This document shows positions 3,372 to 20,892 of a stretch of DNA of 54,013 nt, in pieces. The notes below the pieces were generated by a model that worked only from the letters and a program-made list of their open reading frames with translations, was not told the origin of the DNA and searched no databases. How positions within the stretch are numbered: position 1 is the first letter of the stretch; each line of letters begins with the position of its first letter. Origin of the DNA: Bacillota bacterium (GTDB taxonomy: Bacteria; Bacillota; Clostridia; Peptostreptococcales; Anaerovoracaceae); the NCBI GenBank assembly GCA_029008005.1, contig JAQXIX010000025.1, forward strand, positions 1-54,013, in the 5' to 3' direction. The translations under genes were made by a program, and so were the position numbers.

Positions 3372-3695
3372 CTATTTGTAGCCTTTGAAGCTTCTCTTCT
3401 CGCTTTCGGTCGGCTTCAGTGCTTCAACTGTTCCCGCAACCGGCGCATTCTGTGAATATTCCGGATAATCTCCGGGATTTTTCACAGGTATTATTCCGGT
3501 TCGCATGACATTCTGACCGGAAACATTTATCTTGTACAGATAATTACTCAGCCCTACAGGTCTTATAAAAAACACATCCCATGTTCCTTCATCTGCGCTT
3601 TCGGATCCGACAACTATACTGTTTTTCAGATGGGTCTTTTTCAGCTTGTACTTTACAGTTCTCTCGGCAGACCTGTTTCTTTTTTTCTTCTCCAT
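3372..3695 (-). CDS. Small conserved-looking protein of unknown function
   Basis: A 107-residue protein that I do not recognise. The N-terminus is very basic (MEKKKRNRSAERTVKYKLKK). The middle (GTWDVFFIRPVGLSNYLYKI) looks like beta strands, and the tail is rich in Pro and Glu. No signal peptide or membrane helix is visible. The start has GGAGAAG eight bases upstream. It lies 16 bases after the flavin reductase gene and just before fbp, so it is probably co-transcribed with them. The coding call is supported by the ribosome site, tight packing and the absence of a better frame. Confidence 0.6.
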   Translation of the reverse strand: MEKKKRNRSAERTVKYKLKKTHLKNSIVVGSESADEGTWDVFFIRPVGLSNYLYKINVSGQNVMRTGIIPVKNPGDYPEYSQNAPVAGTVEALKPTESEKRSFKGYK

Positions 3696-8867: not shown

Positions 8868-9503
8868 ATGATACCCATGAAAGATGAATGGTATGCAGCC
8901 CTTGAAGCACGACATGGCAAGGATCGGCAAAAGCAATTTTACCATGGAACTGTTGCTGTATGCGGGCTGGGCGGACTCGGTTCAAATATAGCTGTCTCCC
9001 TTGCCAGAGCAGGCGTCGGTAAGCTTTACCTCTTTGATTTTGACGTTGTCGATCTGACTAATCTTCATCGGCAGCAGTACAAGGCCGGACAGATTGGAAT
9101 GAACAAAACAGAAGCGCTGGCCGAAAACATCAGGGAAATCTCGCCATATACAGAACTTGAAATCCATACCTTAAGGATTGATGAAGAAAACGCCCCGGAG
9201 CTTTTGCAAAATGCCGATATCGTATGTGAAGCATTTGATGATGCTAATGCAAAGGCAATGCTTACAAACCTTGTCCTGGAGAAAATGCCGGACAAGTATC
9301 TGGTTGCAGCTTCAGGGATGGCCGGATACGGCAGTGCCAATGAAATCAAAACACGAAAAATAACAGATAAATTTTATCTGTGCGGTGATGGAGTCAGCGA
9401 CATCGAAAACGGCGTCGGACTCGTTGCTCCTCGTGTTATGCTTTGCGCTGCACATCAGGCGCATACTGTTCTCAGAATCCTTGCAGGTATGTACGAAATA
9501 TAA
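8868..9503 (+). CDS. thiF: Sulfur carrier protein ThiS adenylyltransferase ThiF
   Basis: A 211-residue E1-like enzyme with the nucleotide loop VCGLGGLGSNIAVSLARAGVG, the acidic strand LYLFDFDVVDLTNLHRQQY and the Arg/Gln cluster after it. These are hallmarks of ThiF/MoeB/UBA1 enzymes. It activates the ThiS C-terminus with ATP. The compact length is typical of the clostridial ThiF in thiSFGH operons. The start at 8868 uses GGGAGG in the end of thiS; the upstream frame overlaps thiS and is rejected. Nearest alternative is MoeB/HesA, but position after thiS settles the role. Confidence 0.93.
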   Translation: MIPMKDEWYAALEARHGKDRQKQFYHGTVAVCGLGGLGSNIAVSLARAGVGKLYLFDFDVVDLTNLHRQQYKAGQIGMNKTEALAENIREISPYTELEIHTLRIDEENAPELLQNADIVCEAFDDANAKAMLTNLVLEKMPDKYLVAASGMAGYGSANEIKTRKITDKFYLCGDGVSDIENGVGLVAPRVMLCAAHQAHTVLRILAGMYEI

Positions 9504-9521
9504 AGAAAGAAGGAATCGAAA

Positions 9522-10292
9522 ATGAAAAACGATAAGCTTGTCATCGGCGGACATGAATTCAGCTCCAGATTTATTCTGGGATCAGGAAAGTATTCAATGA
9601 AGCTGATAGAATCCGCTGTTAAGGACGCCGGTGCAGAAATAATAACCCTTGCTGTAAGACGTGCCAACACTAAAGAGGAAGAAAATATACTGGATTACAT
9701 TCCTGAAGGTGTTACACTGCTTCCTAACACATCCGGTGCCAGAAACGCCGAAGAGGCAGTTAGAATCGCACGTCTCGCCCGTGAACTGGGATGCGGCGAT
9801 TTCGTTAAAATTGAAATAATGAGAGACTCTAAGTACCTGCTCCCGGACAACAGCGAAACTATAAAAGCCACGGAAATCCTGGCCAATGAAGGTTTCGTTG
9901 TAATGCCTTACATGTATCCCGATCTTAATATTGCCCGGGATCTCGTAAATGCCGGTGCAGCTTCCGTTATGCCTCTCGCTTCTCCTATTGGATCGAATAA
10001 AGGCCTTGCAACGAAGGAATTTATACGGATTCTCATTGATGAAATCGATCTGCCGATTATCGTTGATGCCGGAATAGGAAGACCGTCGCAGGCATGCGAG
10101 GCAATGGAGATGGGCGCTGCCGCAATCATGGCTAATACTGCTCTTGCTACTGCAGGTGACTTGCCGATGATGGCTTCCGCATTTAAAAACGCCATTGACG
10201 CCGGCCGCAAAGCTTACCTTTCGGGACTCGGCAGAGTACTTACTCGCGGAGCATCTGCGTCAGATCCTCTCACGGGATTCCTGCGTGATTAG
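9522..10292 (+). CDS. thiG: Thiazole synthase ThiG
   Basis: The 256-residue TIM-barrel protein has ThiG signatures: [12 protein letters not shown] at the start, [17 protein letters not shown] with the Schiff-base lysine region, [18 protein letters not shown], and [31 protein letters not shown], which forms the phosphate site. It condenses deoxyxylulose-5-phosphate, dehydroglycine from ThiH and ThiS-thiocarboxylate to the thiazole. Ribosome site AAAGGAAT is seven bases before the ATG. It lies between thiF and thiH in one transcript. Confidence 0.96.
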
Positions 10293-10303
10293 GGGGTGCA
10301 TTT

Positions 10304-11557
10304 ATGGAAAACAGTTTTTTTGTTGATTCGGAGCATTTATCTCCTGAAGCCATCGAGAAAAAACACAGGCTTGAGAATGATCCTTCGTACCGAAAGAATC
10401 ACATGGAATACATGCCCGGAATGGAGATTATCGATTCCGATGTCTGCGAGAACGTAATCAATCATATGAATTCATATGACTACTCCGTTTATACAGCATC
10501 CGATGTAAGAGCCGCGTTATCTCACGACACGTGTACTGTGGAAGATTTCAAAGCACTCCTTTCCCCTGCCGCCGAGCCTTTTCTTGAGGAAATGGCTCAG
10601 AAAGCAAGGAAGGAAACAGGCAAACATTTTGGAAATACAGTATATCTGTTCACACCGCTTTATATAGCCAACTACTGTGAAAACTACTGTGTATACTGCG
10701 GATTCAACTGCTACAATCACATTAGCCGCATGAAGCTCAGCATGGAGCAGATTGAAAAGGAGATGCAGGTCATTGCCGACAGCGGCATGGAGGAAATTCT
10801 GATTCTTACAGGCGAGAGCCGCAGTATGAGCGATATTGAGTACATTGGTGAGGCATGCAAGCTGGCCAGAAAGTATTTCCGCATGGTCGGACTTGAAATA
10901 TATCCTGTAAATACAGACGAATACAAGTATCTTCATGAATGCGGAGCCGATTACGTGACAGTCTTTCAGGAAACATACGATGCAGATAAGTACGAGCAGC
11001 TGCATCTGATGGGACACAAGCGAATCTGGCCGTACCGATTTGACGCACAGGAACGTGCGCTTCGTGGCGGAATGAGAGGAGTGGCATTTTCTGCTCTTCT
11101 GGGGCTGTCGGATTTCAGAAAAGATGCTCTGGCAAGCGCCCTGCATGTTTACTATCTGCAGAGAAAGTATCCTCATGCAGAAATGTCCCTGTCCTGCCCG
11201 AGACTAAGACCGATAATAAACAACGAAAAAATCAATCCTCTCGACGTTCATGAGAAACAGCTTTGTCAGGTGATTTGCGCATACCGTATTTTCCTGCCAT
11301 TCGTGGGAATTACCGTTTCCTCCCGTGAAAGTGCGGCTTTTAGAAACGGCATAGTTAAAATCGCCGCAACCAAGGTATCAGCAGGAGTTTCCACAGGAAT
11401 CGGAGACCACGAAAGCAAATATAACGGAAAAGAATCTGATGATATCCGGGGCGACGAGCAGTTTGAAATTGATGATAACCGCAGCCTTGACAAAATGTAC
11501 AAGGATATTGCGGAGGAAGGATTACAGCCGGTTCTTAACGACTATCTGTATGTGTGA
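10304..11557 (+). CDS. thiH: 2-iminoacetate synthase ThiH (radical SAM)
   Basis: This 417-residue radical SAM enzyme splits tyrosine to p-cresol and dehydroglycine for the thiazole ring. The cluster motif Cys-x3-Cys-x2-Cys is at 125, 129 and 132 (YCENYCVYCGF). Downstream motifs include EILILTGESRS, VFQETYDADKYEQLHLMGHK and RPIINNEKINPLDV. ThiH rather than the oxygen-using ThiO marks an anaerobic route. It starts 11 bases after thiG with a GGGGGTG site and overlaps the putative GTG start of thiE. Confidence 0.96.
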   Translation: MENSFFVDSEHLSPEAIEKKHRLENDPSYRKNHMEYMPGMEIIDSDVCENVINHMNSYDYSVYTASDVRAALSHDTCTVEDFKALLSPAAEPFLEEMAQKARKETGKHFGNTVYLFTPLYIANYCENYCVYCGFNCYNHISRMKLSMEQIEKEMQVIADSGMEEILILTGESRSMSDIEYIGEACKLARKYFRMVGLEIYPVNTDEYKYLHECGADYVTVFQETYDADKYEQLHLMGHKRIWPYRFDAQERALRGGMRGVAFSALLGLSDFRKDALASALHVYYLQRKYPHAEMSLSCPRLRPIINNEKINPLDVHEKQLCQVICAYRIFLPFVGITVSSRESAAFRNGIVKIAATKVSAGVSTGIGDHESKYNGKESDDIRGDEQFEIDDNRSLDKMYKDIAEEGLQPVLNDYLYV

Positions 11558-11562
11558 TTATT

Positions 11563-12201
11563 ATGAGAAAATTCGACCCAAGTTTATATTTTATTACGGA
11601 CAGCACGAACTACTCAGAAGAGGAGTTCCTGTTCCGTGTTGAGGAAGCGTTAAAAGGAGGCGTAACCCTTCTGCAGCTTCGCGAAAAAAACAAATCTACA
11701 AGAGATTATATCGATCTGGCAGAAAAGGTTCACGCCATTGCCATCCGTTATAATGTACCTCTTATAATTGACGATCGTGTCGATGTTGCCCTTGCCGTCA
11801 ACGCAGAGGGTGTCCATGTAGGCGCAAGTGATATGCCTGTATCAACGGCCAGAAAGCTCATGGGCGAAGACAAGATTGTCGGAGCAACAGCAAAGACCGT
11901 TCCCTGGGCTGAGGAGGCCTATGAAGAAGGCGCAGATTATGTAGGTGTAGGTGCTATCTACCCTACTACAACGAAGGTCAAAACTGTGTTGACTTCCACA
12001 GAAACGCTAAATGACATCTGCAATGCAGTTCCGATTCCCGCCAATGCCATCGGCGGACTGAATAAAGACAATATCGATATTCTGAAAGGAATACCCATTG
12101 CCGGAATCTGTGTTGTATCTGCCATAATGAAAGCCGATTCACCGAAAAAGGCCGCCGAAGAATTAAAAGCACGAGCAAAAGAACTTAATCTGATCAAATA
12201 A
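11563..12201 (+). CDS. thiE: Thiamine-phosphate synthase
   Basis: A 212-residue ThiE joining HMP-PP and thiazole phosphate. Motifs seen: GGVTLLQLREKNKSTRDY, PLIIDDRVDVALAVNAEGVHVG, VGATAKTVPWAEEAYEEGADYVGVGAIYPTTTK and AIGGLNKDNI, together the full pyrophosphate and Mg site. I take the ATG at 11563, five bases after the thiH stop; an in-frame GTG at 11554 would give a four-base overlap. Neither has a strong ribosome site, so translation is likely coupled to thiH. Confidence 0.94.
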   Translation: MRKFDPSLYFITDSTNYSEEEFLFRVEEALKGGVTLLQLREKNKSTRDYIDLAEKVHAIAIRYNVPLIIDDRVDVALAVNAEGVHVGASDMPVSTARKLMGEDKIVGATAKTVPWAEEAYEEGADYVGVGAIYPTTTKVKTVLTSTETLNDICNAVPIPANAIGGLNKDNIDILKGIPIAGICVVSAIMKADSPKKAAEELKARAKELNLIK

Positions 12202-12219
12202 CCGGAAGGAATTATTACC

Positions 12220-13524
12220 ATGAGAAACTACACAACACAAATGGATGCCGCAAGACAGGGCATCATAACTCCAGAAATGAAAATCGTCGCTAAGAAAGAG
12301 TATAGAACAGAAGAAGAAATCAGGGATCTCGTTGCTGCGGGACAGGTTGCCATCTGTGCCAACAGGCTTCACAAATCCATCGATCCCAACGGAGTAGGTT
12401 CCATGCTCAGAACAAAGATTAATGTGAATCTTGGAGTTTCACGAGACTGTAAGGACTACGACATAGAGATGAAAAAGGTTATGGCCGCTGTCGATATGGG
12501 CGCCGAAGCCATAATGGACCTTTCTTCCCATGGCAATACACAGCCTTTTCGCAGAAAACTGACATCCGAGTGCCCTGCAATGATTGGAACTGTTCCTGTA
12601 TATGACAGCGTTATCCACTATCAGCGCGATCTGGCAACTCTCACTGCCAAGGATTTCATCGATGTCATTCGCCTTCATGCTGAAGACGGTGTGGATTTTG
12701 TAACTCTCCACTGCGGCATAACTCGCAAAACCATCGACCAGATAAAGAAGCACAAAAGAAAAATGAATATCGTTTCCCGCGGAGGTTCCCTTGTTTTCGC
12801 ATGGATGAGCATGACCGGCGAAGAAAATCCATTCTACGAATACTTTGATGACATCCTCGAAATATGTCGCGAATACGATGTAACAATTTCTCTCGGAGAC
12901 GCATGCCGCCCGGGATGCCTCGCAGACGGAAGTGATGTATGTCAGATTGAAGAACTCGTTCGCCTGGGAGAGCTTACGAAACGTGCCTGGGCAAAAGATG
13001 TTCAGGTTATGGTAGAAGGCCCTGGCCACATGCCTATGGATCAGATTGAGGCAAACATGAAGATGCAGCAGACAATCTGCATGGGAGCACCTTTCTATGT
13101 GCTCGGCCCGATTGTTACAGATATTGCCCCGGGATACGACCACATTACTTCAGCCATCGGCGGAGCCATAGCCGCAGCAAGCGGTGCAGCATTCCTTTGT
13201 TATGTTACGCCTGCCGAGCATCTGGCACTTCCTAATGTAGATGATGTAAAACAGGGCATTATCGCCTCGCGTATCGCAGCTCATGCTGCCGATATTGCCA
13301 AAAAGGTTCCTCACGCAAGGGATATCGACGATCGTATGGCCGATGCGAGAAGAACCTTTGACTGGGAAAAACAGTGGGAATGTTCAATCGACCCTGAAAC
13401 AGCGAAATCCATTAGGGATGACCGCTCCCCTGAGCACGAGGACAGCTGCTCAATGTGCGGCAAATTCTGTGCTGTCAGAAGTATGAACAAAGCCCTGAAC
13501 GACGAATACATCGATATTCTCTAA
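12220..13524 (+). CDS. thiC: Phosphomethylpyrimidine synthase ThiC
   Basis: A 434-residue radical SAM enzyme turning aminoimidazole ribotide into HMP-phosphate. It has GAEAIMDLSSHGN, VDFVTLHCGITRKT, SRGGSLVFAWM, ISLGDACRPGCLADGSD and MVEGPGHMPMDQIEANM. The C-terminal cluster is CSMCGKFC, a Cys-x2-Cys-x3-Cys spacing, one residue shorter than the CX2CX4C of E. coli ThiC. The protein also lacks the long N-terminal domain of the E. coli form. It is the last gene of the thi operon; thiD and thiM are not present in the window. Confidence 0.96.
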   Translation: MRNYTTQMDAARQGIITPEMKIVAKKEYRTEEEIRDLVAAGQVAICANRLHKSIDPNGVGSMLRTKINVNLGVSRDCKDYDIEMKKVMAAVDMGAEAIMDLSSHGNTQPFRRKLTSECPAMIGTVPVYDSVIHYQRDLATLTAKDFIDVIRLHAEDGVDFVTLHCGITRKTIDQIKKHKRKMNIVSRGGSLVFAWMSMTGEENPFYEYFDDILEICREYDVTISLGDACRPGCLADGSDVCQIEELVRLGELTKRAWAKDVQVMVEGPGHMPMDQIEANMKMQQTICMGAPFYVLGPIVTDIAPGYDHITSAIGGAIAAASGAAFLCYVTPAEHLALPNVDDVKQGIIASRIAAHAADIAKKVPHARDIDDRMADARRTFDWEKQWECSIDPETAKSIRDDRSPEHEDSCSMCGKFCAVRSMNKALNDEYIDIL

Positions 13525-13527
13525 TCA

Positions 13528-13797
13528 TTACTCCCATGCTGAATATGTAATACTACCGCGCATTCTGAAGTCAAAGAAAATCGCAGCCACGACAAACAGG
13601 CTGATAAGTGACACCAGGGAATACACAACATACATGGAAACTTCCGCAAGCAGAACAACGGAAGGTCTCACCGGTGTAACTCGATATCTCTTCAGAATGC
13701 GCTTTTCTCTGTAATCGGATATGACCAGAGGGATCCCCATTAATCCGCCGGCGCAAATTGCAATTGTGCATATGGCTGCTGCTTCTCTTGCTCTTCA
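13528..13797 (-). pseudogene. Remnant of an ABC-2 type transporter permease
   Basis: The minus-strand frame from about 13797 reads REAAAICTIAICAGGLMGIP, then LVISDYREKRILKRYRVTPV and two hydrophobic stretches (VVLLAEVSMYVVYSLVSLIS and LFVVAAIFFDF). This matches the middle of ABC-2 permeases, where a Y/W-REx-G/RxLKRxxxTP motif precedes a membrane helix. It stops 20 residues after the second helix and has an in-frame stop upstream at 13795-13797, so both ends are missing. No ATPase partner is nearby. Likely a decaying fragment left by a deletion. Confidence 0.6.
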
Positions 13798-13892
13798 GAT
13801 TTCAATGTACTCCTCAGCCGAGGCAATGGCCTCGTCGAACTGTGTTAGGGTGTCTTATATCACATAGATTTGCCGTCGTAAATCGTGTTTTT

Positions 13893-13930
13893 TTGTGAAA
13901 TAATCATCTGACTGAAGGATTTATTCACAA
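13893..13930. repeat. TTGTGAA-N24-TTCACAA unit 1
   Basis: Exact 7-bp inverted arms at 13893-13899 and 13924-13930 with 24 bases between, the same geometry as two further units downstream. Arm centres are 31 bp apart, about three helical turns, so both arms face the same side of the DNA. Confidence 0.6.
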
Positions 13931-13944
13931 ATACTTCCGTCTCC

Positions 13945-13982
13945 TTGTGAATGCAAAGGCTATAATCATAGTTTTTTCACAA
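13945..13982. repeat. TTGTGAA-N24-TTCACAA unit 2
   Basis: Arms at 13945-13951 and 13976-13982, again exactly 24 bases apart. The spacer sequence is unrelated to that of unit 1 except for AT-richness, and contains TATAAT at 13961. Confidence 0.6.
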
Positions 13983-14059
13983 TAAAAAGGCACCTTGTAT
14001 CCGCACATGCCTGTTCCGGTATAAAAAAATTTATGTATATGGCTTTTGCGTAAGGTGAA

Positions 14060-14097
14060 TTGTGAATCCAGTCATACGAACACATTATAATTCACAA
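14060..14097. repeat. TTGTGAA-N24-TTCACAA unit 3
   Basis: Arms at 14060-14066 and 14091-14097, exactly 24 bases apart. A TATAAT (14086-14091) overlaps the right arm by one base, so a bound protein could cover a promoter about 100 bases ahead of the next gene. Confidence 0.6.
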
Positions 14098-14192
14098 AAA
14101 ATAAATATTTACGAAAAAACCCATTGCAGCGCAAAGGCATTTCATGTAATATATACCTATATTTACCATTTATTTACATTTAGGGGTGCTGT

Positions 14193-14996
14193 ATGAGAAA
14201 CGATTCACTGACAGAGATGTACTATCCTATGGTTTTTACTCCGCCGGAAAGGCTTTCATATGGGTTGAAGAACCGAGAATCGAGGCTTCTTCGAGAGGAA
14301 CTCAAGCATATCAGAACAGGTTCTCTCTTTATCGACTATTATAAGGACAGGACCTATTTTACCGAGTACAGAAACGGGGCACGCAGGCGGATTACTAAAA
14401 ATACAGACAGGGTCTACGCTCTCGCACGGCGGGCATATATAACAAAACGAATTAAATATCTGCAGGGATTTGACAACGGAGAAATGAAAAAGCTTCTTGA
14501 GAAGTTTCAAGGTGCGGGACTGGAAATATCGCGAATTGTTATGACTCAGGCTCAGTATAAATGGGCAAATGCTAAATACGAGCGAAAGAGCCAGCGAAGA
14601 GATGCTCTTCTTTACAGTTCTCCTAAGGGTGTACGATTCAGGTCGAAGTCCGAATTTCTTATAGGAAGCACTGCAGAAAAATATCACCTTCCCTACAGAA
14701 CAGAACCGCATCTGTATCTTGATGGGCGATGGTATCATCCGGATTTCGTATTAATGCTTCCGGATAACAGACTAGTCATTCTGGAGCATTTCGGGAGGAC
14801 CGATCTGGACGAATACATGATGGATTTAATAGAAAGACTGAGGATATATGAGAACAACGGACTGATTCTCGGAGTCAGCGTTTTCGTTACCTTTGAGCAG
14901 CATACTGTGTCCGAAGATAAGGTCTTAAGCTTACTACGGAGAATCATATCGTCCGATGTTCCCGAAATCTGTGCCAGATATTTTATGGGAAGATAA
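14193..14996 (+). CDS. Orphan PD-(D/E)XK nuclease-like protein ('EHFG' type)
   Basis: A 267-residue protein. The N-terminal half is charged and helical (residues 20-110, beginning with a short strand pair SLFIDYYKDRTYFTEYRNG). The C-terminal half has a PD-(D/E)XK-like core: Glu154 in RSKSEFLIG, Asp184 in YHPDFVL, then Glu198-x-His200 in VILEHFG. The usual Lys is therefore His. Similar Clostridia proteins with the EHFG motif are common and mostly uncharacterised. The start has AGGGGTG seven bases upstream. It stands alone on the plus strand behind the TTGTGAA/TTCACAA array, which may control it. Nuclease activity is an inference from the fold pattern. Confidence 0.75.
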   Translation: MRNDSLTEMYYPMVFTPPERLSYGLKNRESRLLREELKHIRTGSLFIDYYKDRTYFTEYRNGARRRITKNTDRVYALARRAYITKRIKYLQGFDNGEMKKLLEKFQGAGLEISRIVMTQAQYKWANAKYERKSQRRDALLYSSPKGVRFRSKSEFLIGSTAEKYHLPYRTEPHLYLDGRWYHPDFVLMLPDNRLVILEHFGRTDLDEYMMDLIERLRIYENNGLILGVSVFVTFEQHTVSEDKVLSLLRRIISSDVPEICARYFMGR

Positions 14997-15007
14997 TATC
15001 CGAACAT

Positions 15008-18000
15008 TTATTCAGGAATAATTGTTGTTCTGTATATAAATTTTACTGAGCTTTCTGTTCCTGCAGCACTTTCAGAGAATATACTGTAGCTGTTTCCTCC
15101 GGAGAGCTTCTTAAGGTCTCCGGATAAGCCCTTAAGATTGTTTTCATAAAGGCTTACAATTTTTTCGATTGCTTCGCTGTAAAATTCGTTCATACCTTTG
15201 TTAAGTTTGTAGGCTCCCACATTAAGCTTACCTACACCTTCAATAAGTGTTCCTGAACCTTCGTCCATTTTTTCCATACCTGCTGCGAGAGACTTGGCAC
15301 CTTCATTCAGGGCTGCTGTACCGCCCGCCAGTGATTCGGCGTCACTTCCCGTACCCTGCAGGCTCCCGGATAATGACTGTGTTCCCGAGGCAACAGCCGC
15401 AGCACCTCCTACAAGAGTATTTCTGTCTGAAGAATCGGCACTTCCCACTGCCGACTGCAAAGATCCAATACCGCTGCTTAATGACGAAGCGCCGGACTGA
15501 AGGGCACTTAATGTTTCAATTATTTCAGAACGCTGTGCTGACTGCGCCGAAGACGCACTGCCGAGTGCTCCTGCCATTTTGGAATAACCATCTTCGGTAA
15601 TGTCTCCCGATTCCCTGAGACTGTCAAGTACTGTCATGAGCTCCGCGCTTCCTGAAGAATTTTCGACAGCTGACTTAAGCTGTGAAAGTCCACCGTTTAC
15701 GGAATCCGCTCCTGATTTCAGCTGACTTAAAGACTGGGACACATTTTTCGTTCCTTCATAAACCCCCATACTGCCGGACGCAAGCTGTTTCGCTGCGGGA
15801 ATAAGCTTGCTGTTGACTTTCTGAACAAGTGCTTCCGTCCCGGCCGCCAGTGCTTTACTGCCTTTAGCCGCTGAACTTACGCCATCCTTAAGTTCCCCTG
15901 ATTTGTCCTGTAAGGTCTCGAGTCCGGAATAAAGCTGATCTGTTCCGTCGCACAGCTTCCGTGCTGCACTGTCCATGGCCTTTATCTGACCATCTAAATC
16001 CATTGAGGCAATATCCCCGAATTTCTGTCCGTCAAAAATATCACCTGTTACAATTGTCATCATGTCACTTACAGAAAACTTATGCGCCTCACCTGTAATT
16101 TCAACAGTATTGCCGATGCCTGTCAGTTCTTCAGCCTTAGATGAAACTTTTTCGAGTCCCGGTACCGCCAGGGCAACAACTATCTGCTTTTCTCCGTCAT
16201 CAATAACACGGCCGCTTGATATTTTCACATTCCTTAAACAATTATCTTTAACTATCATAGCCGATACCGCCGCGAATGGCATTTCTTCAGAACAACTGTA
16301 TTCTATTGTCATTTTCACCTTCCCGGATTTACCGTCGAGTTCTTTGCCGCTTACTTTCTTTCCGTTAAGAGCGTAACTTATTTTCATGGCAACAGGAGGT
16401 TTTCTGTCTGTCGTTCCCTGATAATATATATCATTTCCTCCCGCATTCCACATGATGTTTTCGCCTTTTATGGTGAATCTCTCGTCACCTTTTGTATTCT
16501 CGATATTTTCAAGATTTGACACATCCTTCAGAGTCTTCTCGCCACCTCTGTTAATAAGGTGATCCGAAACAATAAGTTCCTCCTGTTCCCCGGATGCATC
16601 GGTAACAACATATACGGTTTCTTCCTTTTCCTGTACTGTTGCCGCATCTGCCGTAACAGTCCCGGCTCCCATGGAAAATACAATTATCCCTGCAGAAATC
16701 AATGCGGTTATTTTCCTGTTCCTATTCTTTCGATTCATTTTTTTCTTTCCCCCATTCTTATCTAATCTCGTGGTTTTGCATATCAGTCCGTCAAAAATCA
16801 TAAACATAGACGGCAGCATAAACATTACAATCAGCATGCTTATTACTGCACCTCTGGCCATCAGACTGCACAGCGAGCTGATTATGTCAATATCCGAATA
16901 AATTCCGACACCGAACGTCGCCGCGAAGAAACCAAGAGCACTTACTGCCACCGAAGGCATCGCAGCACTGTGTGCAATCCGAACAGCCTCTTCTTTAACT
17001 TTTCCACGCGCCCGCTCCCTCTGATACCGGACTGTCATCAGTATAGCGTAGTCCACCGTCGCTCCCAACTGAATCGTACTTATACATATGGATGCAATAA
17101 ACGGCAGCACCGTCCCCGTATAATACGGTATTCCCAGATTAATAAATATTGCCAGCTCTATTACCGCTACAAGAATCACAGGAAGACTCGGTGATTTGAG
17201 CACAAAACCTATTATGATAAATATGGCAGCTATAGAGAGCAGGCTGACAACCTTAAAATCTCTGTCCGTTATGTCAATAAGATCTTTAGTGCATGGAGCC
17301 TCGCCTATGACCATACCGGTTCTGTCATATTTGTCTACAATTGCGTTTATCCTGTCAATCTGCCTGTTAACCTTTTCGGACGCAACCTTGTACTCGGAAT
17401 TCACCAGAATCAGCTGATACCTGTCACTTTTCAGAGACTCCTCCAATCCTGACGGAATTATTTCATCCGGCACGGCAGGGCCTACTGCGCTTTCGAGTCC
17501 AAGCACTCCGTTTACACCGGTAACGTCCTCGATCTCATTCATCATGCTGTCTACATCCTTCTTACTCAGGTTCGAATCAATGAGAAGCATATGTGTCGAA
17601 TTCATTTCAAACTCATCACCGAGTTTTTCATTGGCAACAGCAAAAGGCAAATCCTGCGGAACACTCTTATCAAGATTATAGTAAACCTCCGTTTTCTGAT
17701 AGCCGATAAAAGCAGGAATTATCAGCACAACAAACAGAATCGCGAATGCTTTATAATTTTTAGAAACAAAAGCCGAAATCCTGTCAAAGCGCGGCATTAT
17801 CTCACGGTGACGCGTTTTCTCTATCAACCTGTCAAAAGTAAGAATCAGAGCCGGAAGTATTGTCACACTGCCGATTACTCCCAGGAGTACACCCTTCGCC
17901 ATTACAATTCCCAGATCTTTTCCCAGTGTGAATGTCATGAAGCAAAGGGCAAGAAACCCTGCGATTGTCGTTATTGAACTTCCCACAACTGATGAAAGCG

Positions 18001-18817
18001 TGTTGGCAACTGCCTGGGACATGGCTTCTTCCTTGCTGCCGGATCCTTTCGCCCTTTCCTCACAGTAACTGTGCCAGAGGAATATTGAATAGTCCATAGT
18101 CACACCAAGCTGCAGGACTGCACTTAATGCCTTGGTTATATAAGATATTTCTCCCATAAAGGCATTACTTCCCAGATTGTACAGTATAGCCATGCCTATT
18201 CCTGTAATGAACACGAAAGGAACAGCGAAGGAATTCATGAATATCGAAAGAACGATACATGCCAGAACTACTGCCATTGCCACATATATAGGCTCTTCAG
18301 CCTCAGCCAGTTCCTTAAGATCTTCTACGAAAGCAGTCATTCCGCTGACAAAACACTGCTTTCCGCCTATACTTCGTATTTCAGATACTGCATCAAGACT
18401 TTCATCCTCGGATACACCTGTTTCGAAGAATACGGCCATAAGTGTCGTGTCCCCATTATTGAAGCTGTCAATAAGACGGTCGGGCATTATCTCATAGGGC
18501 ACCGATACATCAACAATACTGTCGTACCAAATTACACTGTCCACATGGTCAACAGACTCTATTTCGGATTTCAGCTTCGCTACATCTTTTTTCTCCATGC
18601 CTTCTACCATAACCATGGAGAATCCTCCTTTACCGAAATCCTCCTGCATTATTTTCTGTCCCTTCATTGTTTCAATACTGCCCGGAAGATAACTTAGCAC
18701 GTCATAGTTTATTCTCGTTGCCATTATTCCCATTATGGAAGGAATCAGCAGAAGCACTGCGACTATAAGTATTAACTTTCTTCTTTTTGTAACACCCTTT
18801 CCGAATTTTAGAAGCAT
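15008..18817 (-). CDS. RND/MMPL-family exporter fused to a YhgE-like heptad-repeat ectodomain
   Basis: A 1269-residue membrane protein. Residues 1-690 form a full MMPL/RND unit with about 12 membrane helices in two repeats; GVTMDYSIFLWHSYCEERA and GATVDYAILMTVRYQRERA are the paired helix-4/helix-10 motifs. From Met694 a new section begins with a basic start and a hydrophobic segment ending ADA, just like a signal peptide, followed by an extracellular region. From about 970 on, repeated Leu-x-x-Gly heptads (LYSGLETL, SGASSLSSGIGSL, LAGGTAALNEGAKSLAAGM) resemble YhgE/Pip proteins. A GGGGGAAAG precedes codon 694, so a separate product is also possible. It probably exports lipids, peptides or hydrophobic drugs. 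The TetR gene just upstream is the likely regulator. Confidence 0.85.
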   Translation of the reverse strand: MLLKFGKGVTKRRKLILIVAVLLLIPSIMGIMATRINYDVLSYLPGSIETMKGQKIMQEDFGKGGFSMVMVEGMEKKDVAKLKSEIESVDHVDSVIWYDSIVDVSVPYEIMPDRLIDSFNNGDTTLMAVFFETGVSEDESLDAVSEIRSIGGKQCFVSGMTAFVEDLKELAEAEEPIYVAMAVVLACIVLSIFMNSFAVPFVFITGIGMAILYNLGSNAFMGEISYITKALSAVLQLGVTMDYSIFLWHSYCEERAKGSGSKEEAMSQAVANTLSSVVGSSITTIAGFLALCFMTFTLGKDLGIVMAKGVLLGVIGSVTILPALILTFDRLIEKTRHREIMPRFDRISAFVSKNYKAFAILFVVLIIPAFIGYQKTEVYYNLDKSVPQDLPFAVANEKLGDEFEMNSTHMLLIDSNLSKKDVDSMMNEIEDVTGVNGVLGLESAVGPAVPDEIIPSGLEESLKSDRYQLILVNSEYKVASEKVNRQIDRINAIVDKYDRTGMVIGEAPCTKDLIDITDRDFKVVSLLSIAAIFIIIGFVLKSPSLPVILVAVIELAIFINLGIPYYTGTVLPFIASICISTIQLGATVDYAILMTVRYQRERARGKVKEEAVRIAHSAAMPSVAVSALGFFAATFGVGIYSDIDIISSLCSLMARGAVISMLIVMFMLPSMFMIFDGLICKTTRLDKNGGKKKMNRKNRNRKITALISAGIIVFSMGAGTVTADAATVQEKEETVYVVTDASGEQEELIVSDHLINRGGEKTLKDVSNLENIENTKGDERFTIKGENIMWNAGGNDIYYQGTTDRKPPVAMKISYALNGKKVSGKELDGKSGKVKMTIEYSCSEEMPFAAVSAMIVKDNCLRNVKISSGRVIDDGEKQIVVALAVPGLEKVSSKAEELTGIGNTVEITGEAHKFSVSDMMTIVTGDIFDGQKFGDIASMDLDGQIKAMDSAARKLCDGTDQLYSGLETLQDKSGELKDGVSSAAKGSKALAAGTEALVQKVNSKLIPAAKQLASGSMGVYEGTKNVSQSLSQLKSGADSVNGGLSQLKSAVENSSGSAELMTVLDSLRESGDITEDGYSKMAGALGSASSAQSAQRSEIIETLSALQSGASSLSSGIGSLQSAVGSADSSDRNTLVGGAAAVASGTQSLSGSLQGTGSDAESLAGGTAALNEGAKSLAAGMEKMDEGSGTLIEGVGKLNVGAYKLNKGMNEFYSEAIEKIVSLYENNLKGLSGDLKKLSGGNSYSIFSESAAGTESSVKFIYRTTIIPE

Positions 18818-18890
18818 ATAATCACCTTTCCGTAAAAATCTACAATGTAAATTGTAAACAGGGTTTCAAGGTTCATCCATAGGCAAAAAA
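18818..18890 (-). promoter_or_regulatory. Leader of the exporter gene with a possible TetR operator
   Basis: The short gap between the tetR terminator and the exporter holds ACAATGTAAATTGTAAA, a repeat of TGTAAA-like half sites with ACAAT/ATTGT symmetry. TetR-type operators look like this and the regulator gene is adjacent. No strong promoter boxes were identified. Confidence 0.35.
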
Positions 18891-18920
18891 ACAGCCGTGC
18901 ACAAATTTTGTGCACGGCGC
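18886..18920 (-). terminator. Intrinsic terminator after the TetR gene
   Basis: GCCGTGCACAAA and TTTGTGCACGGC form a perfect 12-bp stem followed on the minus strand by TGTTTTTTTG. It lies about 20 bases past the tetR stop codon and separates tetR from the exporter transcript. Confidence 0.88.
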
Positions 18921-18937
18921 ATCTAATGTATGGTTTT

Positions 18938-19507
18938 TCAAATTGTTCTGATTACTTCTTCCGCACTTTTTAAAGCAGCGTCTACCGTTCCCTTCAGCAT
19001 GATATCACATGTTTTCGCCAGTTTTTCTCCCGAAACATTCATATCTCTGTCTATCCATCTCATTACGGCTCCCACAAAAGCGTTTTTATAAAAGTCTGCG
19101 ACAAGCATTTCCGCTTCTTTGCTCGCTGAAGATTTTGCTGTATGAATCCGGACCAGTTTCAATGCATATTCGCTTACAACCCTGTCCAGGTATTTCTCGA
19201 GAAACTCTCTGTTTAGAGATCTGTATATGTGATAGATGACCGCCTTGTTCTCGTAGAGAAATGTAAGCCCTTCCTCAAAACCCTTTTCCCAGTCCGTTTC
19301 CTTACCGAAAGCTTTGATAATTTCGTCCGCTTTGCTTGTGAGCATCCATCCGAGCAGCTCGTATACATCACTGAAATGATAGTAGAACGCATTTCTCGTA
19401 AGCCCGCATCTGTCTGTTATTTCTTTTATTGTTATTCTGTCCAGAGACTTGGTTTTCAAAAGCTCTGTTACTGATGCCGCCAAGGTTTTTTTTGTAAGAT
19501 TTGACAT
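18938..19507 (-). CDS. TetR/AcrR family transcriptional regulator
   Basis: A 189-residue protein with the N-terminal TetR helix-turn-helix (DRITIKEITDRCGLTRNAFYYHFSDVYELL, residues 20-50) and an all-helical ligand domain. The C-terminal part resembles the TetR_C group found with Pip/YhgE and dhaS regulators. It starts with a GGAGGA site at 19507, 17 bases after the response-regulator gene, and ends at a strong terminator. The next gene downstream is the MMPL-YhgE exporter, the usual type of target. The inducer is unknown. Confidence 0.88.
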   Translation of the reverse strand: MSNLTKKTLAASVTELLKTKSLDRITIKEITDRCGLTRNAFYYHFSDVYELLGWMLTSKADEIIKAFGKETDWEKGFEEGLTFLYENKAVIYHIYRSLNREFLEKYLDRVVSEYALKLVRIHTAKSSASKEAEMLVADFYKNAFVGAVMRWIDRDMNVSGEKLAKTCDIMLKGTVDAALKSAEEVIRTI

Positions 19508-19524
19508 TCGTGTTCCTCCGCTGA

Positions 19525-20892
19525 TTATTTAAGGTTATAGTCATTCATTTTATTAAGCAGCTGCCTTCTCGTTATTGAAAGGATTTCGGCTACAGTATTC
19601 AGATCCGAAGGGTATCTGGCAATCAGCTCTTCAATATATTTCTTTTCGGCCTTCTGCCTATATGCCCTGAGGGATTCGGTATAGTCTGTATATATACCGG
19701 AGGAGCCGTTTTCGCCTTTGTTCCTGAATATTTCAGGAGGCAGATACTCTTCTTTTATCTCTCCGTGTTCCGAAAGTACAAGAAGTCTCTCGATTAAATT
19801 TTTCAGTTCCCTTATATTACCCGGATAACTGTAATTCTCAAGCAGGGTTCTGACACTTTCCGGCACTGTGATATTCTCTTTTTTCATTTCTCTTCCGAAC
19901 TTATCAAGGAAAAAGTCGATGAACAGAGGAATATCTTCCCTTCGTTCTCTCAAAGGCGGAAGTTCAAGAACAATGGTGCTTATTCTGTAAAACAAGTCGC
20001 TTCTGAACGTTCCTTCTTCCATGTCTTTCTGAAGATTTCTGTTTGTGGCAGTAATCAGTCTGAAATCAACATTTACCGGAGTACTGCTTCCCATTCTGTA
20101 AATCACCTTGTTTTCAATGGCCTTCAGCAGTTTGGCCTGAATCCCCATTGAAACGCCCCCGATTTCATCGAGAAAAAGCGTTCCGCCGTTAGCCGCTTCG
20201 AAATGACCGATTCTTCTCTGCGCGGCTCCTGTAAATGACCCTTTTTCGTGGCCGAAGAGCTCAGACTCCAGAATCGATTCGGAAATCGCCTGACAGTTTA
20301 GCTCCATCAGATTTTTGTCACGTCTCTGGCTTTTGCTGTGAATAAATGATGCCAGCACTTCCTTGCCGGATCCCGACTCTCCCAGAATGAGAATATTGGA
20401 ATTGCTCGATGCTGCTCGTTCCACAAGAGTAAGCATGTTGTTATACTTTTCGTTTCTGCTTTCAAGCATGTATTCCACGGAAGTCTTTTCTCTCAGAACC
20501 ATATTCTCCCGGTTAACGTCTCTCATACTCCTGACCTTGGCAACTTCCATAAGAAGCTCCTCGGGATCGTTTCCTTTGGTAACATAGGTGTAGGCACCAA
20601 GTTTCATGGCTTCGACGGCAGTTTCGATAGTTCCGAAGGCCGTCAGCATAATTACCTCAACATCGTACTCCCGCCTCTTTATCTCTTCCAAAAGCTCGTA
20701 ACCTGACATTCCGTTCATTTTAAGATCCGAAATCACAAGATCCAGGTTTGCCCGTTCCAGAATTTCAAGTGCTTCTTTGCCGGAGCCGCACGTTACAACT
20801 GAGTACCCGCAGTTTTCAAGAATCATTTTAATAACCGCACAGTATTCTTTCTCATCATCCACTACCAGTATCTTAAACAGTTCATTACCCAT
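19525..20892 (-). CDS. Sigma-54-dependent response regulator (NtrC/AtoC type)
   Basis: A 455-residue regulator with three domains: receiver (residues 1-120, phospho-acceptor Asp56 in LVISDLKMNG), AAA+ sigma-54 activator (about 140-370; Walker A GESGSGKE, sigma-54 contact loop GSFTGA, Walker B GGTLFLDEIGG) and a Fis-type helix-turn-helix at the C-terminus (NTVAEILSITRRQLLNKM). The contact loop has Ser where GAFTGA has Ala. I choose the ATG at 20892, eight bases after GGAGG; an ATG at 20898 sits too close to that site. The gene overlaps the kinase gene by a few bases, so the two form a pair. Confidence 0.93.
   Translation of the reverse strand: MGNELFKILVVDDEKEYCAVIKMILENCGYSVVTCGSGKEALEILERANLDLVISDLKMNGMSGYELLEEIKRREYDVEVIMLTAFGTIETAVEAMKLGAYTYVTKGNDPEELLMEVAKVRSMRDVNRENMVLREKTSVEYMLESRNEKYNNMLTLVERAASSNSNILILGESGSGKEVLASFIHSKSQRRDKNLMELNCQAISESILESELFGHEKGSFTGAAQRRIGHFEAANGGTLFLDEIGGVSMGIQAKLLKAIENKVIYRMGSSTPVNVDFRLITATNRNLQKDMEEGTFRSDLFYRISTIVLELPPLRERREDIPLFIDFFLDKFGREMKKENITVPESVRTLLENYSYPGNIRELKNLIERLLVLSEHGEIKEEYLPPEIFRNKGENGSSGIYTDYTESLRAYRQKAEKKYIEELIARYPSDLNTVAEILSITRRQLLNKMNDYNLK

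Follow-up and report, generated by a model that had tools for sequence, protein, structure and literature searches.

Helically phased arrays of inverted boxes adjoin many members of a family of PD-(D/E)XK-type nuclease genes in Anaerovoracaceae and may spread as miniature repeats

We analysed a stretch of 54,013 nucleotides of a Bacillota genome (contig JAQXIX010000025.1; the whole stretch is referred to as the window), in which three inverted pairs of the 7-bp box TTGTGAA form an array upstream of a gene for a PD-(D/E)XK-like protein. Comparison with relatives suggests array and gene forming one unit, which would be a system resembling that of the REPINs (inverted doublets of repetitive extragenic palindromes, REPs) and their RAYTs (REP-associated tyrosine transposases), here built on a PD-(D/E)XK nuclease and with the units of the window's member not spread; we assign this reading a probability of roughly 0.58. 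It draws on features seen in the sequences, i.e. the recurrent association of arrays with the gene, their helical phasing, joint differences in box and protein sequence between alleles, alleles differing in presence and orientation, dispersed copies of the units and conserved nuclease residues.

The window array and its nuclease gene

The features of the locus are the following.

13893..13930, no strand: unit 1, TTGTGAA-N24-TTCACAA, exact match.
13945..13982, no strand: unit 2, TTGTGAA-N24-TTCACAA, exact match, 52 bp after unit 1 (about five helical turns of 10.5 bp).
14060..14097, no strand: unit 3, TTGTGAA-N24-TTCACAA, exact match, 115 bp after unit 2 (about 11 turns).
14193..14996, + strand: open reading frame of a 267-aa member of the array-associated PD-(D/E)XK-like family, assigned by family searches.
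14244..14462, + strand: N-terminal alpha-beta-beta-beta-alpha domain (residues 18-90) in predicted models, proposed box reader and the region that varies most where alleles are otherwise alike.
14610..14906, + strand: C-terminal PD-(D/E)XK-type domain (residues 140-238) with conserved E154, D184 and E198, assigned by conservation, fold match and a PADLOC match.

An earlier note on this DNA had described three identically spaced TTGTGAA-N24-TTCACAA units and proposed counting them genome-wide. All three are exact, with 0.00 expected from 100 dinucleotide shuffles of the window, and in the window's own assembly (1.63 Mb, 86% complete) the exact pattern occurs at these three places only, which is above chance compared to 0 for a reversed-pattern control. 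Allowing up to two mismatches yields 9 places versus 3 for the control, the six additional ones being scattered and one of them lying at 3450 on the window's contig. The inner sequences of the three units differ from each other. The box equals the half-site of the operator of the redox repressor Rex, TTGTGAA-N4-TTCACAA; a Rex operator was rejected on account of the N24 spacing in all three units and the unrelated boxes carried by paralogues.

The 267-aa protein matches no Pfam family above the cut-off and no NCBIfam model. Its C-terminal domain has a fold match to the homing endonuclease I-Bth0305I and to TnsA, and its acidic residues are kept in the family alignment (E154 in 66/67, D184 in 66/67 and E198 in 67/67 sequences), so that the label PD-(D/E)XK-like given by the earlier note holds: the usual lysine is absent, the core fold and the conserved acidic residues of the superfamily are present. 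The PADLOC model of the candidate defence protein PDC-S68 was matched by all 63 members tested (best E 5e-36), the alignment to the window member covering the C-terminal nuclease part only. The same 63 members show no match to a Y1 transposase, Nop, RuvC or HNH family in Pfam and NCBIfam at E 0.01.

The gene is no orphan, as it had been called. Among 61 genomes searched with the protein, matches came from 34 of the 37 of the same genus (own included) and from none of the 24 of other families, with up to nine matching stretches per same-genus genome and four in that of the window. When 198 genomes of the order were searched with a profile, 26 of the 42 that belong to the same bacterial family gave a match, in a few cases (G061, G113, G156 and G181) to the nuclease part alone; the five profile matches outside the family likewise concern the nuclease part only, in frames of 728-1240 aa. 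Among the genomes searched, full-length members occur in one bacterial family only, most being open frames of 240-420 aa. The named relatives are metagenome bins, several of them from goat and horse gut; one is named UBA1191, which we take to be a GTDB genus of Anaerovoracaceae, and the RUG bins are presumably of rumen origin. A phage or plasmid origin is unsupported: no relative was confirmed on viral contigs, plasmids gave no family match, and phages a single weak and partial match to the nuclease part.

Arrays are a trait of the family

A gene was scored as having an array if one of its two 740-bp flanks contained a 6-mer paired with its reverse complement at a constant distance two times or more. 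Two or more identically spaced inverted pairs accompany 35 of the 69 genes from the same genus and 15 of the 26 from other genera, and three or more pairs accompany 23/69 and 6/26, respectively; since some two-unit calls of the other genera (e.g. L081, L098, L099) resemble terminators or chance, the figure of 6/26 is the safer one. None of 174 control tiles of 740 bp (70 from the window and 104 downstream of groEL) has an array, which for the same-genus set is to be compared with at most 138 flanks, 36 of them positive, and none of the shuffled flanks (60 shuffles each) reached two pairs. Together with the window shuffles and the genome count this leads us to reject a chance origin of the arrays.

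In the same-genus set the array lies upstream only of 19 genes, downstream only of 15 and on both sides of one (L037); by eye, boxes flank L042 on both sides as well. The remaining 34 genes are without an array by the strict test, two of them, L014 and L035, showing looser arrays by eye. The boxes vary widely among relatives (TGCCACAA, AAGTACAAAA, AACCACA, TTAACGAAA, TTGTACACCTAGA, TTTCTACCTG) and, read by eye, have no head common to all. Of the conservation at homologues which the earlier note had suggested looking for, the arrangement is conserved in 35 of the 69 same-genus genes and TTGTGAA itself is not; the outcome which that note had named as refuting its reading was thus not obtained.

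The units are phased to the DNA helix

As several loci carry two names (L125 = L038, L126 = L011, L128 = L008 and others), duplicates were removed by box and period from the listing of box distances. Distances between boxes of the same orientation cluster at 52-53, 62-64, 72-75, 84, 93-94, 104-106, 114-116 and 126 bp, with outlying values including 23, 29, 40, 66, 86, 123, 128, 133 and 170 bp. Weighted by array, the resultant R at 10.5 bp is 0.75 for the 31 arrays with three or more units, a value as high being found in 0 of 20,000 random-phase sets and likewise in 0 of 20,000 for a reduced set of 27 arrays; a scan of 6-20 bp over the 31 arrays gives a best period of 10.55 bp. The window's 52 and 115 bp fit this phasing. 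Periods following 10.5 bp point to double-stranded DNA being held on one face, which is consistent with the geometry put forward in the earlier note, a protein gripping inverted half-sites on one face of the DNA.

Box and N-terminal domain differ together

Two alleles, L008 and L011, occupy one site beside groEL and carry different boxes, AAGTACAAAA and AACCACA, respectively. Their groEL-side sequences are 94% identical and their C-terminal halves with the downstream sequence 87%; the nuclease domains are 98% identical with few nonsynonymous (dN 0.009) compared to synonymous substitutions per site (dS 0.224; dN/dS ~0.04). In contrast, residues 40-90 are only 41% identical, with a nucleotide identity of 0.49 and a dS that is saturated and not computable, and blastn returns no alignment across the array and the N-terminal half. 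A further allele of the groEL site, L038, is 67% identical to L011 in residues 40-90 and 94% in the nuclease domain, and AACCAC is common to both. L006 and L035, which are 83% identical, both have TGCCACA-type boxes, degenerate in L035.

These observations suggest the N-terminal domain reading the gene's own box. Box consensi in this comparison were read by eye, and over all 378 pairs box likeness and N-terminal likeness are uncorrelated, which is expected with saturated boxes and means that the coupling rests on few pairs. Because saturated synonymous change adjoins a near-identical domain, the pattern of substitutions favours an exchange of array and N-terminal domain as a block over rapid divergence in place.

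One site downstream of groEL is found in several states

In L155 and L156 the interval between groEL and hslO contains neither gene nor array, with the flanks being alike. In L125, L126, L127 and L128 the order is groEL, terminator, array, gene, placing the array on the groEL side of these + genes. Four members downstream of groEL are inverted, namely L157, L165, L129 and L168. L157 (G007 C22) combines a degenerate nuclease gene with an intact array towards groEL, which consists of nine exact TTGTCAAA boxes forming five units. The inverted gene L165 likewise has its array, of three units, towards groEL, and further genes lie beyond. The inverted member L129 shows one exact box and others by eye only, and L168 no array by the box test applied to L157 and L165. 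Among the 26 groEL-downstream regions L155-L180, three have a member (L157, L165, L168) and two are the empty alleles; in the remaining 21 the neighbours are different, a member was not found, or the contig ends.

A nuclease-domain tree unites the + alleles at groEL in one group (100/96) and splits the inverted members between two places: L022 (= L165) is grouped with L168, and L013 (= L129) stands next to alleles that belong to a different shared site. The groEL site has therefore been occupied more than once or its gene has been replaced. The array lying on the groEL side of both + and inverted genes argues against it being simply an operator.

Units of some arrays are dispersed in carrier genomes

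Five boxes were counted genome-wide: three are dispersed (those of G141, G030 and a paralogue on contig C32 of the window's own genome, G000), and two, the L027 box and the window's own box, occur at their own locus only. The L085 pair has 232 places on many contigs of its own genome G141 at up to two mismatches (control 1), and 5 and 19 places in two other genomes (control 1 each), where all listed places have one or two mismatches. Twelve fetched loci of G141 contain 78 units with 67 different inner sequences. Of the 11 solo loci nine are situated no more than ~400 bp from the end of a contig, a position to be expected of repeats. At one G141 array the matching flanks are 1,164 bp apart versus 96 bp in the relative G070, where there is no box pair; the same junction also contains other extra sequence.

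The L017 10-mer occurs 26 times forward and 24 times reverse in G030 (control 7 and 6), 5 times in G029 (control 2) and 0 times in G000. Thirteen fetched G030 loci hold 32 units at up to three mismatches, as single 40-bp units and as arrays with a 72-bp period; one inner sequence is repeated at four loci with at most one change, unit 3 of L017's own array recurs at two other loci with a few changes, and 7 of 12 dispersed-array loci overlap no frame of at least 100 aa. By eye, L183 and L193 of G030 show four copies of a larger repeat with similar flank and hairpin, in which the number of array units differs.

In G000 the C32 paralogue pair is found exactly at 15 places, of which 11 do not adjoin the C32 gene, and at 25 places with up to three mismatches (control 3). 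The paralogue itself (L037, contig positions 10107-11362) is bracketed by a 168-bp two-unit element present as two direct copies, which agree at 166 of 168 positions. L230 and L235 have their near flanks in common and differ by one unit and spacer. Several dispersed copies (L229, L230, L231, L234, L235) share, by eye, an extra flank like GAAAAAACTCCACAACAAC, so that the dispersed element may exceed the box pair. The suggestion of the earlier note that the array might be a mobile-element end or a recombination array came close, the dispersed arrays not being visible from a single window.

Neighbouring genes and further loci

Between thiC and the array (13528-13771) there are short minus-strand reading frames, and a gene convergent with the nuclease gene (15008-18817) encodes a 1,269-aa transporter, MMPL-like by eye, whose C-terminal region is repetitive and rich in Ser/Gly. 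Elsewhere, a member that has no ordinary array (L045, G022 C28) is flanked on either side by the palindrome AGTTTTTCGACAAAAACT, and in G023 (L064) a member is inverted at the equivalent site. In G204 a 1,165-bp stretch, 99.8% identical and inverted, adjoins two family members ~40 kb apart (L106 and L107).

Discussion

Among the alternatives, two appear improbable to a similar degree. In the first, the array would be an autoregulatory operator only, i.e. the protein represses its own gene through a multi-site operator and the dispersed arrays are other operators or relics. An operator had also been suggested by the earlier note, and the upstream position of the window array and an inverted box pair framing a TATAAT-like sequence upstream of L081/L082 (by eye) agree with this. 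It does not suffice for the arrays lying only downstream of 15 of the 69 same-genus genes, for those downstream of the inverted genes L157 and L165 at groEL, for the conserved acidic residues and the low dN/dS of the nuclease domain in L008/L011, or for the 232 places in G141; a strict sigma-70 scan of 13500-15100 found no promoter-like site, which speaks weakly against an operator as such a scan says little on promoters in this organism.

The second is a homing-type selfish nuclease, according to which gene ends receive array and gene as a joint insertion, and chromosomes whose allele lacks the insert or has a different one are cut by the nuclease. The nuclease fold is that of a homing family, represented by I-Bth0305I, which we take to belong to the EDxHD, Vsr-like class. 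However, identity to I-Bth0305I is 14%, and the family described here differs from it in the N-terminal domain, in the cognate array next to the gene and in having units dispersed. The proposed recognition sites adjoin the gene in the carrier, which would itself be cut, and the 232 dispersed places are left unexplained.

We consider a phage defence nuclease, for which the array would be a sequestering or decoy site restraining a toxic enzyme, less probable still. The match of the C-terminal domain to the C-terminus of PDC-S68 in all members tested and the several diverse copies per genome fit with defence. Yet only the nuclease part of the window member matches this model, which has ~1,200 positions compared to mostly 240-420 aa here, the N-terminal domain differs, an array is often present, and defence does not predict a dispersal of units. 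For TnsA of Tn7 there is a fold match, no TnsB-type DDE transposase or other tns gene being noticed by eye among the open reading frames at 9000-20000, where no systematic neighbour search was made.

Arrays transcribed into hairpin guides of an RNA-guided system as in TIGR-Tas or CRISPR are very improbable: a locus-specific repeat array does adjoin the protein gene as in TIGR-Tas, and the window's spacers differ, but the array periods follow the DNA helix, inner sequences are common to copies and occur in several arrays across species, and the 63 members lack a Nop, RuvC or HNH match, a Nop domain together with RNA guides being the defining features of Tas proteins (PMC12045711).

The REPIN/RAYT systems offer the closest comparison. 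According to PMC2817692, RAYT genes lie between two inverted REPs, evolve fast and jointly with their REPs, and correlate with REP abundance, and REPs may occur in clusters in which their orientation alternates. REPINs are inverted REP doublets in extragenic space (PMC3116915). Shared with these and with bacterial interspersed mosaic elements (BIMEs) are, as far as these texts go, a gene adjoining its own inverted-pair repeats, alternating arrays and fast gene evolution, and cognate copies dispersed between genes and abundant where the cognate gene is present (PMC2817692, PMC3116915). Such dispersal in the carrier genome was seen for three of the five boxes (G141, G030 and C32 of G000) and not for the window box or that of L027. 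In contrast, the enzyme here is of PD-(D/E)XK type and not HUH/Y1, the boxes of ~6-13 bp are placed at whole helical turns and, by eye, are without a GT(A/G)G head, the arrays are mostly one-sided (both sides in 1 of 69 same-genus genes), and N-terminal domain and array vary together among otherwise similar alleles. The nuclease-array system appears to work like REPIN/RAYT and is not a member of it, because of the other enzyme fold, the lack of a common REP head, the mostly one-sided arrays and the DNA-helix phasing.

The reading of array and gene as one REPIN/RAYT-like unit can be put into a model, according to which the N-terminal domain of the nuclease would recognise the gene's own box and two molecules would bind an inverted box pair, further pairs at whole helical turns allowing a multi-protomer complex to assemble on one face of double-stranded DNA. 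The C-terminal nuclease may then cut or nick within or beside the bound units, and host repair of the breaks could copy, delete or relocate whole units. Relocation would let units spread as miniature dispersed repeats, with array and reader domain being exchangeable as a block. The window locus would be a family member with a three-unit array that has not spread.

In the open-licence papers searched, no link between such a nuclease and cognate arrays was found. We see about even odds for a second, independently evolved REPIN/RAYT-like way of life, in which a PD-(D/E)XK nuclease exchanges reader domain and box array as a block and helically phased units are propagated as miniature mobile DNA, in up to hundreds of copies. 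If true, repeat families bound to one dedicated enzyme would have arisen more than once in bacteria, beyond the HUH transposases. The family would offer dozens of natural pairs of protein domain and DNA box, including near-identical nucleases with different boxes, as a route to a DNA-recognition code, and it would make testable what holds such repeats and their enzyme together.
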